A DNA stretch of 33,954 nucleotides from Deltaproteobacteria bacterium (GTDB lineage Bacteria; Desulfobacterota; DSM-4660; Desulfatiglandales; Desulfatiglandaceae): positions 1 to 33,954 of the forward strand of contig JAIPDI010000055.1 in assembly GCA_021737785.1 (NCBI GenBank), in the 5' to 3' direction. Position numbers and translations under genes: made by a program. Shown here piece after piece: positions 1 through 33,954 of this stretch. Each line of letters opens with the position of its first letter. Within the stretch, counting starts at the first letter, position 1. Below the pieces are notes generated by a model that had not been told where the DNA came from, did not search any database, and saw nothing but the letters and a program-made list of their open reading frames with translations.

Positions 1-148
1 AAAAAAATTATATCGAAACCCAAAGGGAAATGCAAGAGAAAAGTCGCCCCGAGGTCATTTTTTTAGGCCATTTCTCGGTCGGCAGCTAATGAGTCAGACT
101 CGCGCCAGAGCCGCATAGTAAGTCCGACAGGCTGCTAGGGAAAACTTA

Positions 149-349
149 TTAATTTAAAATTTTTCGATAAATAGTGTCGTCAGGAATTGAATTTCGCATA
201 GCAGTGAAAAGGATACGCAACTCGCTTTTTGTGGTGCCAAAATGATCGCGAATTTCTTGATTCGAATCAAGATCGAAGGTTTCACGGGGAGCGGTATAGG
301 AAGGGAGCGCAGCCGGTATTAATGCCGGCTTTTTTATTTTTGTAACCAC
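149..349 (-). CDS. small hypothetical protein, possibly DUF3606-like
   Basis: A 66-residue frame opening with GTG; upstream AAGG could serve as a weak ribosome binding site. The C-terminal half (FDLDSN..EIRDHFGTTKSELR..) loosely resembles the short DUF3606 pattern, in which a D-L-x-D start is followed by a helix-turn-helix-like stretch, but the match is weak. The first 15 codons coincide with a terminator-like hairpin read on the other strand, which lowers confidence that the N-terminus is real; translation may begin later or not occur. It stands alone with no partner gene. No function can be assigned. Confidence 0.35.
   Translation of the reverse strand: MVTKIKKPALIPAALPSYTAPRETFDLDSNQEIRDHFGTTKSELRILFTAMRNSIPDDTIYRKILN
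311..341 (+). terminator. possible intrinsic terminator
   Basis: AGCCGGTAT and ATGCCGGCT form a 9-bp stem with one G-T pair and almost no loop, followed by a run of T residues broken by one A. This is the shape of a Rho-independent terminator on the plus strand. No plus-strand gene ends just upstream within the window, so it may be a relic or serve a transcript I cannot see. Confidence 0.4.
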
Positions 350-615
350 CTTGATATATGAAACAGCATCTTCTGCGTGGAGAGGTTATTGATGATTTGG
401 TGCATACCCTCTGTCACGGAAGATGACTTTAGCTGGGCATAGTGGCGACACCAAGGGATATCCTAATTAATCTTCCATTGAAGTTTTATATTGAATAGGG
501 TTGAAACAGGCTTTTTGTTATGCCAATCACAACTTATTTAAATTAGCCTGATATTTAGTATATGAAATAAATCTGAATTTACTCCAAACTGGCATTTGAC
601 TCGATTAGCTTTGGG

Positions 616-1419
616 ATGAAGATGCTACAGCCTATTAGCGAAAAGAAAAAGAGCGAACATCTAAGAAACATCTTTATCACTAAGCGGTGGTATGAGAAAG
701 AGGAAGAGTTCAAATGTGCTGCAAAATATAGTGAATCCTTCGAATCCTTAAGGGCATTTTTGGACTATTTAAAGCATCATGAAATCACTATCGGCGCTAT
801 CACTAACGAAAAAACTAAAGTCCCCGCTTCTTTCAGTGACATCCTGTTAGCAGGTTTTCCGTTCACGGCAGACAACAGCTATTTAGAATACTTACATAAG
901 GCTTTAACTCTATACACTCCGGTATTCTTTATCAAACATAAGGGTATCCCCTGTGACCTGATTGTGCTTCCTAAAGAATGGGATACAGCACAGAAAATAG
1001 GTTTCAGTTGTTTCTTCAGAGAAAGCAAAATACAGCAATTCAGGAATGAAAATTTAACTTGGAGTGATTCGGATTTCGAATGCCCCAGGCTCAAACAGCT
1101 CTCTGAAGAAATACAGGGAGAATTTGCGAATGAGGGTAAGCCTTGTGAAAACGCACCAAGATACTACGGCAAGGACCTCATTAATGCTATCGCTGCCCTA
1201 TACAATAATGATACGTTTGAAAGGATCCGCATTTCTAGAATTGTTCCGATCACGACCTTTAGTTCCTTCTTTGACGCTATCTTATGGATGTACTGTATTG
1301 GGGAGGAAATTTTTAGCGCAAAAATTGAAGAAACCCGAGCCAAATCGCGAAATAACATGCAGCTCTTTGCAGACCTTTATTCCTATTTACAAGCGTCGGC
1401 AACAAAACAGGAGGGGTAA
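616..1419 (+). CDS. hypothetical protein, first gene of a two-gene operon with a cyclase-like protein
   Basis: A 267-residue protein I do not recognise. It is mixed alpha/beta with no membrane segment or signal peptide; a hydrophobic beta-like stretch (TPVFFIKHKGIPCDLIVLP, about residues 99-117) suggests a compact globular domain. Two ATGs (616 and 622) are possible starts; neither has a strong Shine-Dalgarno, so initiation may be weak. The next gene begins 5 bases after its stop and takes its ribosome binding site (GGAGG) from the last codons here, so the two are almost surely co-transcribed and probably work together. Base composition is AT-richer than the right half of the window, pointing to horizontal acquisition. 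No catalytic motif is evident. Confidence 0.75.
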   Translation: MKMLQPISEKKKSEHLRNIFITKRWYEKEEEFKCAAKYSESFESLRAFLDYLKHHEITIGAITNEKTKVPASFSDILLAGFPFTADNSYLEYLHKALTLYTPVFFIKHKGIPCDLIVLPKEWDTAQKIGFSCFFRESKIQQFRNENLTWSDSDFECPRLKQLSEEIQGEFANEGKPCENAPRYYGKDLINAIAALYNNDTFERIRISRIVPITTFSSFFDAILWMYCIGEEIFSAKIEETRAKSRNNMQLFADLYSYLQASATKQEG

Positions 1420-1424
1420 GAGAC

Positions 1425-2789
1425 ATGCTATATAGCTCAGCTGCTGAAATCCTTGAGCTTTACCAGAATCCTAATGTGCGGAAGATTTTCAGTCCCAGCT
1501 TCTACAAAAAAGACAGAAAAGAACAGGAAGAATTGATCAAAGGGGTTCCTCAATTCGCGAAAAAAGGTGTCAACATCGATACTATACTTGACACCTCACG
1601 CAATTACTATTTTTTCTCGGTTGACTTTCTTTCAAATGAGCTGGCAGACCATGTACATAACCGTGTTATAACGAAACAGGATGAGGATGGTGGCTTCCCA
1701 CTTGTAGATAGAGATTACCTCTTGGAGATACGGGGAAAAGAGTTCGAGGAAGCTATTGATAATTATTTAAAGAGCTATAAAGATACATTCAATAAAGTTT
1801 ATCAAAGGGATGTGCAGGATTTCAAACAGGTTTTGGTCCCCACATACTGGACTAATTATATAGTACTTCTGCTGCTAAGCAAATGGAAAACCTGTGTAGA
1901 GCAAGATAGCCATCCTTCGATTTCCTATCCGTTGGACAAGATAGTGTCAGCTATCAAGAAGGGTAAAGAATGGCTTGAGGACAATTCGCTAGATTCAGGT
2001 TTTCCTTTTTCGCACAAAAGCATATCTAATACTCCGAATACTTATGACACATGCATGGCGCTCATTGCTCTTAATTATACCACTAGCTATGACAATGACA
2101 TTCAAGACGGTGGCTTCTCCGGTAAAGAGCACTTAGAGGCTCTATTGCGGACGGATATTAGGAATGCAAACGGAAGCTGGAAGAAAGAGCCAGGCATTGA
2201 TAAAGAAGACACTGGTGCGACTGCCTATGCTACACAAACTCTGTTGAAATATTACCGCAGAGAGAACGATGACAAAGAAAGAGACAGGTACCTGCCTTTT
2301 ATAGAGAATGGCGTAAAATGGCTAATTGACAATCAACGCAAAAAGGAAGATGGCGGCTGGGGTGAATTTGGTCAACAACAAAGCCAAGAGTCATTTGTCG
2401 AAAAAACATGTTATGCTCTAATGGCACTAGCGAAATACCAAACCACTTTTTTTAAATATTCAGTAACTGAAGAGCCTATTGATGCTGGGTTATCCTTTCT
2501 CAATGAGAGAAAGAGGCCTTACAAACCCTATTCTATTGGTTTTGTCTGGCCGAACGATTATGAAATGGGCAAGGCTCCGGAAGAATGGAAAGATAGCCTT
2601 AAGAATTCGTCATTAGCAATTTCTGCCATGTTAAGATGTGGTGTTAAGGGGCATGATGTCGTAGTTCAAAAAGGCATTATCGGCACTTCTAGGTTTTATG
2701 AAAAAACACATGAAGAGAATAGCAACGCTTGGTACAACCCCATTTACTATTTTTGTATGTTAGCCGATTTTTTAAAAAGAGTGCAATGA
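1425..2789 (+). CDS. prenyltransferase/squalene-hopene-cyclase-like alpha-barrel protein
   Basis: This 454-residue protein shows the repeats of the terpene cyclase/prenyltransferase (alpha/alpha)6 fold: QDEDGGF near 85, QDGGF near 227 and DGGWGEF near 309, the last followed by VEKTCYALMAL, which is how the C-terminal domain of squalene-hopene cyclases reads (GGWGE...QTAWALLAL). At 259-263 DKEDT occupies the place of the class II cyclase DxDDT acid motif, with Glu for the second-last Asp. It is shorter than hopene cyclases (about 630 residues), and its first 190 residues look unrelated to them. It has no signal peptide, is probably soluble or peripheral, and is translated with the preceding unknown gene. 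Whether it is an enzyme or a binding scaffold (complement-like TED and protein prenyltransferase subunits share the fold) cannot be settled here. Confidence 0.8.
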   Translation: MLYSSAAEILELYQNPNVRKIFSPSFYKKDRKEQEELIKGVPQFAKKGVNIDTILDTSRNYYFFSVDFLSNELADHVHNRVITKQDEDGGFPLVDRDYLLEIRGKEFEEAIDNYLKSYKDTFNKVYQRDVQDFKQVLVPTYWTNYIVLLLLSKWKTCVEQDSHPSISYPLDKIVSAIKKGKEWLEDNSLDSGFPFSHKSISNTPNTYDTCMALIALNYTTSYDNDIQDGGFSGKEHLEALLRTDIRNANGSWKKEPGIDKEDTGATAYATQTLLKYYRRENDDKERDRYLPFIENGVKWLIDNQRKKEDGGWGEFGQQQSQESFVEKTCYALMALAKYQTTFFKYSVTEEPIDAGLSFLNERKRPYKPYSIGFVWPNDYEMGKAPEEWKDSLKNSSLAISAMLRCGVKGHDVVVQKGIIGTSRFYEKTHEENSNAWYNPIYYFCMLADFLKRVQ

Positions 2790-3566
2790 ATCCATATAGC
2801 TTGACAATTCTGGAAAGTCACTTATAGCCCTTGATTTATCGTTGTAGTATATGAATAAGCGATCCTGCTGGCTGCGATCCTCACCAAGAAATCCTTCCAT
2901 AAATTGCAGATCCCCCGTTACATGTCTTAATCTATCGTATGATTTTCTATCGTACTCTTTCAGGTCTGTATTACCATCTAACAGAGAACTTACTTCCTTA
3001 CTTATCTTCCGTACTCTTTTCAGCGTTGAATTGAGAATTTCTCCGGCAAATTCTTTTTCCAATACTCTAGACTTGATATCACTCAGCATCTTAGATACAG
3101 CTTCTTTCGTTGGCGGCAGGTCACGTTTTCTAAACCGTCTTTTTTTGATAGTATGTGAAATGTTCTTACTTATTGATCCGCCAAACCAGCCTACGATGAA
3201 TGTTAGGACCAGGCTAATAAGCTTTTTGAATTCTTTACCAAAAGACACAGTCCTGGTTTCATCAATAATTATTTTCCATCTATTTCTTCCAATTCTTTCC
3301 TTTTGAAGCGATATATTTCTGCTCGGGGTGGTATCTATATGAAGATCCACCTTTTTCCAGTTGATTTTAAATTTCCCTTCCTTGTCCGTTCTCAATATCT
3401 CCATGGGATTTTTTTCTTTACCGGCGTACACTTCGATCTCGGCATTTGTAACAGGAACATTTCCAGACATTACCTTCCCTTCGATTGCTGCATCCTGACC
3501 GTATGACTGATTTGACAATAGGAAGATGCTGAGACCTGTAAGAACACTGGCCAATTGTCTTTGCAT
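2772..3566 (-). CDS. membrane protein: signal peptide, carboxypeptidase-regulatory-like domain, one TM helix, helical cytoplasmic tail
   Basis: The start at 3566 is chosen because GGGAGGAG lies 4 bases upstream and the protein then begins with a signal peptide (MQRQLASVLTGLSIFLLSNQSYGQ). The 264-residue product continues with an exported Ig-like segment (IEGKVMSGNVPVTNAEIEV..., followed by D-K-E-G-K-F) typical of carboxypeptidase-regulatory-like domains. A single transmembrane helix lies around LISLVLTFIVGWFGGSI, then a very basic stretch (KKRRFRKR) predicts an inside orientation, and about 120 helical, charged residues follow. The 3' end overlaps the cyclase-like gene by 18 bases, tail to tail. 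Its outside sensor-like domain and inside tail suggest signal transfer or an anchor; this is inference. A longer reading from 3614 lacks a plausible signal. Confidence 0.75.
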   Translation of the reverse strand: MQRQLASVLTGLSIFLLSNQSYGQDAAIEGKVMSGNVPVTNAEIEVYAGKEKNPMEILRTDKEGKFKINWKKVDLHIDTTPSRNISLQKERIGRNRWKIIIDETRTVSFGKEFKKLISLVLTFIVGWFGGSISKNISHTIKKRRFRKRDLPPTKEAVSKMLSDIKSRVLEKEFAGEILNSTLKRVRKISKEVSSLLDGNTDLKEYDRKSYDRLRHVTGDLQFMEGFLGEDRSQQDRLFIYYNDKSRAISDFPELSSYMDSLHSF

Positions 3567-3909
3567 ATCACTCCTCCCTAAATGCCCCCAACAAACTTTT
3601 TTCTGGAAAGGCATGCCTAAAGCTAACTTTGGGCAAAAGAATTATCCGAAGGCGTCACGTTTTACCTCGCCCTATTCATCCTGTAATCAGAATGATGCTT
3701 TGCCTTTGGCGTCATTCAATGTATTCAGTTTCTTTTGAAACAGTATAACTCCCGGCCCTCTGACTTTACAACATTTTCCGTCGCGCTAATAGACATATGC
3801 AGGCTTTACAAATAGGATGTTGTTGTGTTTCTACTGCTCAGATCAATAAACAGCGGTTCGTTATGAAAATAGCAGAACGGAAACCCTATCTTGGCCCTCA
3901 GGACCTTTG
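3567..3909. other. intergenic, no gene seen
   Basis: This stretch lies upstream of the membrane protein gene and downstream of the ImmA/IrrE gene. It must hold the promoter of the former but I cannot pick one out with confidence. On the minus strand a 32-codon frame ending near 3810 (reading VLRAKIGFPFCYFHNE..) is open and protein-like, but has no start or partner and may be a relic. Confidence 0.4.
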
Positions 3910-4677
3910 CTACGGCTTTATCCAGAGAAGGGAGAGGACAAAGCCATAGTGCGGTGATGCAATTGAATGCTCGACGATTTCATCAAGGCCACGGGGTGCA
4001 ACCCAGGCATGAGCGTCTACCTCAACCGGTTCAGTCTCCATCTCTTTACCCGCAAAAAAATCGTAGGCCAGGGTTCCCTTGTCGAGTTCCTTGCCTCTTT
4101 TGATGTACGGCCACCAATCCGGGCTCTTGTAGAACCATTTGATTTTGCCGTTGGCTGAATGGACAACAGCGCACTTCTCAGGGCATAATCTCACAAACTT
4201 TATCGCTGTTGCAGTCAGTGATGCCCTGAAATCCTTGGCTATCTTCTTTACAGGTTCGAAGCTGATATTTCCGATATCACACCGCTCATGGACCAGCTTC
4301 GCAGGCAAAATCAGCTCGCTCGCAAAGAAATTGGCCTGGGTCTCCTGGCTTTCCTGATGCCAGTTCATCATATCTGCGTCGCTGCAAACCCTCTGTATAG
4401 ATTCGATATGATCCATAAGGAGATGCCCTAATTCGTGGGCAATGCTGAATCTTTTCCTTTCCGGACTGTCAGACGGGGAAATCCTGATGGTTGCCCGGCT
4501 GCCTGCCTTTACAATGCTTGCTGCTGCCCCGGTGAGTTTTTCCTCAACAACTGCTGCCCTTTTGGCAAAGGCGATATCCCTGACTCTGATATGCCCTGGC
4601 AGGCATATCCCGAATTCATCTACGACACCCGAAGCAAGGCGCTCAGCTTCAACCAGCTTGTAATGAATGTCATTCAC
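3910..4677 (-). CDS. ImmA/IrrE family zinc metallo-endopeptidase
   Basis: Zinc protease of the COG2856 family. From the GTG chosen as start it has 255 residues, with the HExxH site as HELGH at 81-85 and the third ligand region QETQANFFASELILP at about 111-125, both as in ImmA and IrrE. Relatives cleave repressors or regulators under stress or DNA damage. The GTG at 4677 overlaps the stop of the preceding gene (GTGAATGA), which implies translational coupling; an upstream ATG at 4779 would add 34 residues of unrelated composition and a long overlap. It is the last gene of a trio with a sigma-like protein and a small helical protein, which are natural candidates for its substrate or partner. There is no N-terminal HTH domain, so any DNA binding comes from a partner. 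Confidence 0.85.
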   Translation of the reverse strand: MNDIHYKLVEAERLASGVVDEFGICLPGHIRVRDIAFAKRAAVVEEKLTGAAASIVKAGSRATIRISPSDSPERKRFSIAHELGHLLMDHIESIQRVCSDADMMNWHQESQETQANFFASELILPAKLVHERCDIGNISFEPVKKIAKDFRASLTATAIKFVRLCPEKCAVVHSANGKIKWFYKSPDWWPYIKRGKELDKGTLAYDFFAGKEMETEPVEVDAHAWVAPRGLDEIVEHSIASPHYGFVLSLLWIKP

Positions 4678-5098
4678 TTCCGCCGTCGTCTTCCATGGCG
4701 CTCCGGCGTGCCATTTCAAGGTCTTCCAGAATGGAGACCATTTCGTCGGTTCCGATGTTTTCCAAATCCCTATATGCAAAGCCGAAGTCAGGTTCGCTCA
4801 ATTCTCTAATCCTTTCAATCAGTTGATCCCTTGTCCAATTACTGAATTTCCCGATGAACTCATGACCTTTCTCTGCCAGCTTGAGCCTCTTTTCCATGGC
4901 AGTATCCAAAACTGACCTTTTCGCCGCCATGGATATGCTCAGCCGTGCCCTCTTCAGCCGGGCTAATGCAGCATCTACATCAATTCCCTGATCCCTCATA
5001 TCCGCCTTTATCTCTTCAGCAGACATTCCTTCGCTCATGCCTAGGGCGTCGGTGAGGGCATCCATGGTCCGCAGATATTTTTCCTTGTCTATGCTCAT
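4670..5098 (-). CDS. small acidic helical protein linked to ImmA/IrrE protease
   Basis: A 142-residue, highly charged, helix-rich protein without membrane segments. It contains an 'EIKADMRDQGIDVDAALARLK' type segment near residues 24-45 that is seen in small proteins encoded before ImmA/IrrE proteases, but has no named domain I can assign. A good ribosome binding site (GGCAGGAAG) precedes the ATG. It sits 23 bases after the sigma-like gene and overlaps the protease gene by 8 bases, so all three form one operon. A likely role is substrate, adaptor or inhibitor for the protease or the sigma-like protein; this is inference from position only. Confidence 0.7.
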   Translation of the reverse strand: MSIDKEKYLRTMDALTDALGMSEGMSAEEIKADMRDQGIDVDAALARLKRARLSISMAAKRSVLDTAMEKRLKLAEKGHEFIGKFSNWTRDQLIERIRELSEPDFGFAYRDLENIGTDEMVSILEDLEMARRSAMEDDGGSE

Positions 5099-6233: not shown

Positions 6234-6491
6234 ATGGCAAAATCCAAAGTGACCCGGCCCAAAGCTGCCCGCAACGCTTCGAAATCCCTTCGAAGCAGGA
6301 ATAGCGGTGCGAAAACAAAGGCTGCTGCCGGAAGCGCTCTGTCTCAGAGCAAATCCCCGAAAAAGATCACCTCTAAGAGGGCAGCGAGTGCCGCATCATC
6401 GGTCCTCCGGGATGGCAGGACTGCAAAAAAGTCAAAGTCAGCAGCCGGAAGCGCGCTTTCTCAGAGGCCGTCCAAAAACAAGAAGAAATAA
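6234..6491 (+). CDS. basic Lys/Ala/Ser-rich repeat protein
   Basis: 85 residues, strongly basic and probably disordered or DNA-associated. It contains a repeated motif: AAAGSALSQ at about 35-43 and SAAGSALSQR near 69-78, with RAASAASSVLRDGRT between them, so it is two and a half copies of a unit of about 35 residues. Small proteins with 'AAGSALSQ' motifs occur in many proteobacteria, usually without a known role. GAGGAGATTGAAAA precedes the ATG. The gene lies 71 bases after the Cys-containing protein and 10 before the SinR/Cas2-like gene. Histone-H1-like nucleic acid binding is a guess from composition. Confidence 0.65.
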   Translation: MAKSKVTRPKAARNASKSLRSRNSGAKTKAAAGSALSQSKSPKKITSKRAASAASSVLRDGRTAKKSKSAAGSALSQRPSKNKKK

Positions 6492-6501
6492 GGAGCTAAT
6501 A

Positions 6502-6780
6502 ATGCCAAACAATCTGTTTATTTCTTATGACCTTCATTCGCCTGGGCAAAATTACGAAGAGGTTGCCGACGCCATCAAGAAGCTCGGAAACTGGGCCAAG
6601 GTGCAATACTCGCTGTGGTACGTCAAGTCGCATTTATCCGCCTCTGACGCTGGGGAAAAAGTCTGGGCAGTCATGGACAGCAATGACTCTCTGATTGTGA
6701 TAGATGTGACAGACAACTTTGCATCCTGGTACAACCTCAGCCCGGAAGTTTCAGAATTCATGAAAAGTCACTGGAATTAG
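6502..6780 (+). CDS. SinR-family / Cas2-fold small protein
   Basis: 92 residues starting at the ATG preceded by AAGGAG with 7 bases spacing. The sequence NLFISYDLHSPGQNYEEV...LGNWAKVQYSLWYVKS...VWAVMDSNDSLIVIDV matches small proteins often annotated as 'SinR family' or, loosely, Cas2: a beta strand ending in YDL, a helix, a strand ending in W-Y/I-x-K-S, and a D-x-N-D-S-L-I-V strand. These share the ferredoxin-like fold of Cas2 and VapD, which include nucleases. No cas1 or CRISPR repeats are near, so it is not an adaptation gene. It ends the three-gene small-protein run. A role as an RNase-like toxin or nucleic-acid-binding partner is possible but unproven. Confidence 0.65.
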   Translation: MPNNLFISYDLHSPGQNYEEVADAIKKLGNWAKVQYSLWYVKSHLSASDAGEKVWAVMDSNDSLIVIDVTDNFASWYNLSPEVSEFMKSHWN

Positions 6781-16009: not shown

Positions 16010-16669
16010 TCCCTCTATATCCCATCACGGATCGTGACGTCAATAGTCCCATCTTTTTCAGGCTATTACGCGGGGAAAGCCATCGGCTGTTCATCTCAAA
16101 ACAGCTGGAATTGCGCCCATATGATACAACAATTCGCCCCATTTGTATCTGTCTGTTCAGAAAAGGCCTTTCCATGCGACGTCTCTACTCCTTAAATGAC
16201 CTTGCGGGCCGTCTTTTAAAACCTCGATGTCAGGGCTTCATGACCGCTGCTCAATGCCCTTTCACATACCGAACGCCCGGGTTTGTCTATTACATCGCAG
16301 GCTTTTAGAAAAAGTTACGATTTTCCCGCACATTAACCGGTCCCGAGAAGCGGGATGGCTCGTCCCCCAAACAGGCGTTGACCCTGTACCCGCCAGGGCC
16401 TTTGCCGGACCCGGGAGGAGTCTTCCCCGGGGTCTTCCAGGTGAAATGAGGACTCCTTGGGATTGTTGGACCCGTAAACACTTGCACCGGCAACCCTTGA
16501 ACCCAGCCGCCCATGTAGAAATTGCTTGACCCATATCAAAAAGAATTGTTCTAATGAAAAATTAGGCATTGCCGTATCGATTGAATCTCTGACTCAAAAA
16601 AGACCGCCTATTCCGACGCAACCGATTGTGAACCGCACATTGTGTGAGATAAAGAAAGAAAAGAGGAAG
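16010..16669. other. gene-free region between the ECF operon and glnS
   Basis: It contains the divergent start regions of the ECF operon and glnS. CACGGATCGTG near 16025 is a short palindrome just upstream of the sigma gene. Between 16300 and 16520 both strands have open frames rich in Gly and Pro, typical of GC-rich non-coding DNA; none has a ribosome binding site or a pattern I know. Confidence 0.4.
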
Positions 16670-18790
16670 ATGACCATGCACAATCCCGAATCTGCACCAT
16701 CCCTGGACTTTATCCGATCTATCATTACAGAAGACGTGAAGGCGAATAAGAACGGCGGAAGGGTCCATACCCGGTTCCCGCCCGAGCCCAACGGCTATCT
16801 CCATATCGGGCATGCCAAATCCATCTGCCTCAATTTCGGTGTCGCAAAGGAGTTCGGGGGCCTCTGTAATCTTCGGTTTGACGATACCAATCCAACCAAA
16901 GAAGAGGAAGAATATGTGATGTCCATCAAAGAGGACGTCCGGTGGCTCGGGTTTGACTGGGAAGACCGCCTCTATTATGCATCAGATTATTTCGACCAGC
17001 TCTATGAATATGCGCTTCAGCTCATCAGGAACGGCAAGGCCTATGTGTGCGATCTGAGCCCGGAGGAAATCCGGGCCTACCGGGGAACCCTGACCGAGCC
17101 GGGAAAGGACAGCCCCTACCGGAATCGCTCCGTTGAAGAGAACCTGGCCCTGTTCGACCGGATGCGGAGAGGCGAATTCGAGGACGGGGCCTGTGTGCTG
17201 CGGGCCAAGATCGATATGGCGGCGCCCAACCTGAACATGCGGGACCCTGTGCTCTACCGGGTGCTTCACGCCCCCCATCAACGGACAGGGACAAAATGGT
17301 GCATCTACCCGATGTACGACTTTACCCATGGGCAGTCGGATTCCATCGAGGGGATTACCCATTCCCTCTGCACCCTCGAGTTTGAAGATCACCGGCCCCT
17401 GTACGACTGGTTCATCCGGGAACTCAAGATCTTTGCGCCGCGGCAGATCGAGTTCGCACGGCTCAATCTCTCCTACACCGTCATGAGCAAACGAAAGCTC
17501 CTGGAACTGGTTCGAGGGGGGCACGTAAGCGGTTGGAACGATCCCCGTATGCCCACCCTGTCGGGCATGCGGCGACGGGGGTACACGGCCGAGGCCATCC
17601 GGGATTTCTGCGACCGGATCGGGGTTGCCAAAAAGGAAAGCATGGTGGACATCGGACTCCTGGAGCACTGCCTTCGGGAAGACCTCAACCAGCGGGCACT
17701 GCGGAGGATGGCGGTTCTCCATCCCTTGCGGGTGGTGATCGACAACTATCCGGAAGACCGGGTGGAGTACCTCGATGCCGAAAACAACCCGGAAGACCCG
17801 GCCATGGGATCGCGAAAGATCCCCTTTTCCAGGGTCCTTTATATCGAGCAGGAGGACTTCCGCGAAGACCCGCCCAAAAAGTACTTCCGCCTGGCCCCCG
17901 GCCAGGAGGTCCGGCTGAAACATGCCTACTATATTACCTGTGAACGCGTGGTAAAGGATGAAACCACCGGCGAGGTAATTGAACTCCGCTGTACTTATGA
18001 TCCGCTAACCCGGGGGGGATGGTCTCAGGACGGCCGGCGGGTCAAGGGGACATTGCACTGGGTGTCGGCCGCCCACGCCATTGAAGCCGAGGTGCGGCTC
18101 TACGATCATCTGTTTGTCACGCCCAATCCCGCTGATCCGAAGGAAGGGGCAGATTTCATATCCCTTCTCAATCCCGGATCGCTTAAGACCCTCACCGCCG
18201 CCCAGGTAGAGCCGAGCCTGGCCGCGGCAGCGCCGGGAACGTTCTTTCAGTTCCTGAGACTGGGCTATTTTTGCGTGGATACGGTTGATTCCACTGTTTA
18301 CAGACCGGTGTTCAATCGAACGGTGACCCTGCGGGATACCTGGGCCAAGATCCAGAAGACCCGGCCGGAGCAGGCTGCGCCCGAGATAGGCCCGAAGACA
18401 GGCGACCAAAAGGGAAGCAAATTGGCCGGTAAAGAACCCGATGACGCGGCGCCGGTCAGTCAGGAGATCACCATAGATGATTTTGCCAGGATTGACCTGC
18501 GCGTCGGCGTGGTGATGGAGGCCGGACTTGTTAAAGGGGCAAAAAAGCTGATACGGCTTATGGTGGACTTAGGGGAGGGACGGCTGCGGCAGGTCTTCAG
18601 CGGTATTCGTTCCACGTATGCCGATCCGGAGGTCCTGGTGGGCAAGAAGGTGGTGGTGGTTGCCAACCTGAAGCCCCGCCAGATGAGCTTCGGTCTGTCA
18701 GAGGGGATGGTCCTGGCAGGGGTCGGTGAAGACCGCCTCGGAATCGCCACTGTTGAAGGAGACCTCCTTCCGGGGGATAAGGTGATGTAG
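16670..18790 (+). CDS. glnS: glutaminyl-tRNA synthetase with C-terminal tRNA-binding (Trbp111/EMAP-II-like) domain
   Basis: Charges tRNA-Gln with glutamine in the cytoplasm. From the ATG at 16670 (16676 is an equally good start; AGAGGA lies upstream) it has 706 residues. The class I HIGH motif is YLHIGHAKS at about 43-51 and the KMSKS counterpart is VMSKR at about 271-275, followed by GLSEG-free anticodon-binding beta barrels, as in GlnRS rather than GluRS ([13 protein letters not shown] is diagnostic). Residues from about 600 to the end form a separate OB fold ([12 protein letters not shown]...[19 protein letters not shown]), the tRNA-binding domain known from MetRS C-termini and Trbp111. 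A charged linker of about 50 residues joins the two. Many fused GlnRS carry YqeY at this place instead, so the OB fold is notable. Confidence 0.95.

Positions 18791-33828: not shown

Positions 33829-33954
<126 letters not shown>

Follow-up and report, generated by a model that had tools for sequence, protein, structure and literature searches.

The closest described relatives of the protein reported here, P0002, are the squalene-hopene cyclases and related enzymes (SHC/OSC; TIGR01787, TIGR01507, PF13243), which are about 640 aa long, form two rings and carry the motif DxDD. Class II cyclase domains consisting of one ring are also known. Ring folds are also found in the beta subunits of protein prenyltransferases (PF00432), with D-x-C and H as zinc ligands, and in the TED domains of complement and alpha-2-macroglobulin, which P0002 would resemble in the general fold. 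P0002 shares with the SHC/OSC proteins its alpha/alpha repeats, the DGGWGE...TxxAL.AL turns and the inner helices, but it has 454 aa and about six repeats, and DxDD is absent in register.

P0002 is encoded by the second gene of a two-gene unit near one end of the window, which is the whole contig C55 (33,954 nucleotides) of a 5.33 Mb assembly from the phylum Thermodesulfobacteriota. The features of the unit are as follows.

1 to 139, no strand assigned: dispersed repeat with 7 further copies in the assembly
616 to 1419, plus strand: P0001, 267 aa, protein of no recognised type
1410 to 1424, plus strand: AGGAGGGG, ribosome-binding-like site, and the 5-bp intergenic gap
1425 to 2789, plus strand: P0002, 454 aa, SHC-related protein without DxDD, probably folded as one alpha/alpha ring
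2199 to 2213, plus strand: codons of DKEDT (P0002 residues 259-263), which do not fall in the DxDDT register and lack conservation

The two ORFs are in tandem, with 5 bp from stop to start, and AGGAGGGG precedes the P0002 start within the 3' end of the P0001 ORF; the tight coupling noticed in the initial annotation is thus borne out. The promoter and terminator scan gave nothing better than shuffled sequences. GC content is about 0.40 over positions 1-4000 and mostly 0.47-0.61 elsewhere in the window, in agreement with the earlier description of AT-richer, apparently acquired DNA. The sequence at 1-139 occurs at seven other assembly sites with 82-100% identity, and because several of these copies lie at contig starts, an unassembled multi-copy element is indicated to abut the unit. 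The repeat, which had no match in the Rfam search, looks like the end of the element at which the assembly broke off. A group II intron match (33829-33899, minus strand; Rfam RF00029, 56.8 bits) sits at the opposite end of the contig, just upstream of a UbiD-like gene.

The homology of P0002 to SHC is distant but beyond chance, judged from profile and pairwise comparison. P0002 matches TIGR01787 with 30.7 bits (E=1.3e-7), far under the curated cut-off of 322.7 bits, and PF13243 with 20.8 bits against a cut-off of 26.1. Smith-Waterman scores against four genuine SHCs of the phylum are 72-107, while shuffled sequences score 37-38 +/- 5 and none of 300 reaches the observed values. These results uphold the view that P0002 is cyclase-like in sequence. 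The DGGWGEF...TCYALMAL and DKEDT strings are both present in the protein. The canonical SHC of the host genome is encoded on another contig (C33; 697 aa, DVDDT at 416, TIGR01507 822 bits), and P0002 is therefore not required as the hopene cyclase of the organism. The genome has one more weak match of SHC type, on C31, but this is a different protein bearing a signal peptide, with no evident relation to P0002.

DKEDT had been proposed to stand where class II cyclases have DxDDT, and a cyclase of a new type, DxED replacing DxDD, was among the readings offered for P0002. That reading is not supported, since by alignment the presumed catalytic residues are out of register and lack conservation. 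DKEDT was paired with DxDDT in none of the P0002 alignments obtained, those with the four genuine SHCs included. In three of the four best SHC alignments, which follow two partly different paths, GSWKKEPGIDKEDTGATAYATQTLL of P0002 lies opposite GSWFGRWGVN--YIYGTAAVLPGL of SHC, and DGGWGEF...TCYALMAL lies opposite DGGWGE...TAWALMAL, about 100 residues past DxDDT. DKEDT usually falls opposite the GVNYIYGT repeat of SHC. DVDDT of the SHC from the same genome (L023) falls on VPTYWTNY of P0002, and DTDDT of another SHC (L011) on (P)NTYDT. The hhalign comparison of A1 with SHC gave another register (304-434 to 279-386, E 2.7e-5), with DKEDT outside the aligned span. The repeats are alike and slide along each other, so that the register is not unique, and none of the registers obtained gives DxDD. 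In P0004, a homologue of P0002 from another genome, the residues aligned to DKEDT are ECPDV; a weak local match (6 bits) places CPDVGAT of P0004 on PDVDDTA, with G and A at the two later acid positions. Several repeats of this SHC-like family start their inner helices with acidic-Thr turns, and for this reason finding D-x-E-D-T in a repeat protein of this sort is not evidence of a cyclase active site.

P0002 could still be an unorthodox cyclase or act on small molecules in another way, with different residues protonating or binding the substrate and P0001 serving as an accessory enzyme. Besides the significant relationship to SHC and the existence of single-ring class II cyclase domains, P0002 and P0004 have D262, C329, W142 and N394 in common, residues that could line a cavity, and another enzymatic activity is possible on that account. 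The absence of DxDD in every register obtained and the presence of ECPD in P0004 in place of DKED speak against it. No isoprenoid gene operonic with the ring gene was recognised at either locus, in line with the earlier remark that terpenoid genes are missing among the neighbours in the window, and hopene cyclization is covered by the SHC encoded elsewhere in the genome. Such an enzyme is considered quite unlikely.

The repeats of P0002 were thought to be confined to its last 260 residues, which proved too narrow. Turn motifs are found at residues 85 (QDEDGGF), 189 (LDSGF), 248 (ANGSW), 308 (EDGGWGE) and 371 (IGFVW), and with the starts of the inner helices they fit about six units over residues ~74-454. 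QDEDGG (85-90) and WT...KWK (142-155) are repeat-like and are kept in P0004. With unit boundaries set by eye in both proteins, the mean similarity between units was reached by 1 of 300 shuffles in P0002 and by none of 300 in P0004. When P0002 and P0004 are compared unit by unit, four of the six find their best match at the corresponding position, and the match is weak for units 3 and 6. The repeat analysis suggests that P0002 is a single alpha/alpha ring, or toroid. At 454 aa for P0002 and 458 aa for P0004, with about six repeats each, both are below the size of a two-ring protein (~600 aa or more). AlphaFold models built from two-sequence alignments had a mean pLDDT of 36 for P0002 and 33 for P0001, too low for fold comparison, and PDB searches with single sequences and profiles gave no meaningful match for the proteins of the pair.

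P0002 was also compared with the other ring families. Like a prenyltransferase beta subunit, it would probably form one ring from about six repeats, but it has no PF00432 match at E<=1 and no PDB match. Its single D-x-C (DTC at 208) is not conserved in P0004, which has no D-x-C, and the zinc ligands of the beta subunits are absent. TED domains gave no Pfam match for P0002, and the thioester motif (GCGEQ/CGEQ-type) is absent from both P0002 and P0004. After P0004, the match of P0002 ranked highest in the phylum, with E 1.8e-4, is a protein from genome G401 (L013:2149-3189), which is also short and SHC-related. It differs in a far clearer SHC similarity (PF13243 1.5e-10, over the cut-off) and in its neighbour, a true HAD phosphatase downstream instead of a P0001-like ORF upstream. 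This SHC-like protein and the phosphatase (L013:2149-4087) form a different small-ring pair.

P0004 is a 458-aa protein with 27% identity to P0002 (E about 1e-20 to 2e-20), encoded in one other genome of Thermodesulfobacteriota (G129; contig JANQFE010000056). A single locus, recorded as L003, L012 and L016, was found by both genome searches, one over a sample of 395 genomes from the phylum and the other a pattern-based scan of 84,980 species genomes. On the same strand, 11 bp ahead of P0004, lies a 218-aa ORF of no recognised type, P0005. The C-termini of P0001 and P0005 share a 28-residue block, which in P0001 is PITTFSSFFDAILWMYCIGEE, with P....S.F.D.I.W....GE in common. The C-terminal parts score 48, against 25 +/- 5 for shuffles, of which 1 in 1000 reaches that score; over the whole length the similarity is weak (14 of 1000 shuffles). 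Since order and strand are the same in the second genome and the C-terminal block is shared, the pair is probably conserved as a real unit, judged from these sequences at n=2 loci, and the statement that the two genes always occur together has the same n=2.

The pair is rare. It was found in 2 of the 395 sampled phylum genomes, and none of 85 genomes of its own class has a convincing match besides the source genome itself. Class-wide searches around both genomes and a second draw of the phylum, largely repeating the first, revealed no further homologue. The scan of the 84,980 genomes uses short conserved peptides, and absence from it is therefore weak evidence. Plasmid and phage tblastn and IMG/VR scans with P0002, A1, P0004, P0005, P0001 and A4 found no relative; relaxed plasmid matches were mostly annotated SHCs, and the one from Planktothrix lies in a terpenoid cluster. 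The unit is apparently an acquired, horizontally moving accessory module. The genes could instead be orphans or decaying passengers that a mobile element carries along, without any conserved shared role, as their rarity, AT-rich composition and position near the contig end at a repeat would allow. However, both ORFs are intact in both genomes despite only 27% identity of the ring proteins, and order and strand are kept; mere passengers are regarded as decidedly improbable.

P0001 has no domain match in Pfam, NCBIfam or PADLOC. A HAD_2 match (E 0.057) is partial, below the cut-off and attributable to chance. Effector domains, whether nuclease, NADase, membrane or of another type, were not recognised in the proteins of the pair, and neither P0001 nor P0002 matches any PADLOC model.

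The neighbours in the window include a CapP-like M78 peptidase (PADLOC 6.9e-59), a MqsA antitoxin, a DUF4143 ATPase and three PIN genes. M78 (ImmA/IrrE) peptidases regulate defence or mobile elements; the gene here (3910-5098, minus strand) is close to CapP and has an overlapping 142-aa ORF. The P0004 locus has an adjoining IS5-type transposase, a Fic gene nearby, a HEPN gene and a further ORF that begins with a winged-helix-like part and has TM segments. Beyond the pair, no gene is common to both loci. P0003, a convergent 280-aa ORF adjoining the unit with an apparent signal peptide and TM segment, was rejected as a third component, having no homologue in 297 genomes and none at the P0004 locus. 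Also among the neighbours is an ORF at 6307-6780 (plus strand) whose second half weakly resembles Cas2 (PADLOC E ~1e-3); CRISPR genes were not noticed in its vicinity. Elsewhere in the window, a glutaminyl-tRNA synthetase (16526-18790, plus strand) has, by eye, an apparent C-terminal Trbp111-like tRNA-binding domain.

Accessory regions of any kind often contain toxin-antitoxin and M78 genes. These surroundings are as expected for accessory DNA, and they make a role in conflict plausible; the defence or signalling role raised in the initial annotation would likewise follow only from the neighbourhood. A strict antiphage or conflict system, with P0002 as sensor and P0001 as effector or adaptor, active upon infection only, would fit the CapP-like peptidase, toxin-antitoxin and PIN genes here, the Fic, HEPN and transposase genes at the P0004 locus, and the patchy distribution of the pair. 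It is nevertheless somewhat unlikely, given the missing PADLOC matches and effector domains, and in the literature searched, ring proteins of this type are not described from systems of defence or conflict. Two adjacent genes amid TA-rich surroundings also recall a toxin-antitoxin or toxin-immunity pair. A toxin-like domain is lacking, as is any Pfam, NCBIfam or PADLOC match, and P0002 is unusually large for an antitoxin, which makes this the most improbable of the explanations considered.

The explanation tentatively preferred is a mobile two-gene accessory module, in which a single ring related to that of SHC joins with its partner P0001 in binding a ligand or protein, possibly with a role in conflict or defence. 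P0002 would be a toroid of about six helical hairpins (~74-454), sharing ancestry with the SHC ring and without the SHC catalytic acid, and the ring would most likely offer a binding surface or cavity for a ligand or protein. P0001 is probably in complex with P0002, as suggested by their coupling and recurrence, and one of the two may sense while the other acts, in either direction. Low GC, patchy distribution, the nearby multi-copy repeat and the IS5-type transposase beside P0004 apparently agree with such a module. Against it stand the number of loci, two, the weak similarity of P0001 and P0005 and the otherwise unrelated neighbours, and the ring may have a pocket with unconventional catalysis. 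The initial annotation had suggested that the fold was reused for binding, the gene being tightly coupled to P0001 and lying in acquired DNA. This suggestion gains from the recurrence of the arrangement in a distant genome and from the missing catalytic motifs of cyclase, prenyltransferase and TED, and holds as far as sequence comparison reaches.

A more specific proposal, regarded as unlikely, is that the two genes make up a mobile two-component module for immunity or signalling that has not been described before, an acid-less single-ring relative of terpene cyclases being the sensor for P0001. Should the pair indeed act in immunity or signalling, the terpene-cyclase ring would join the folds that have been reused for recognition.
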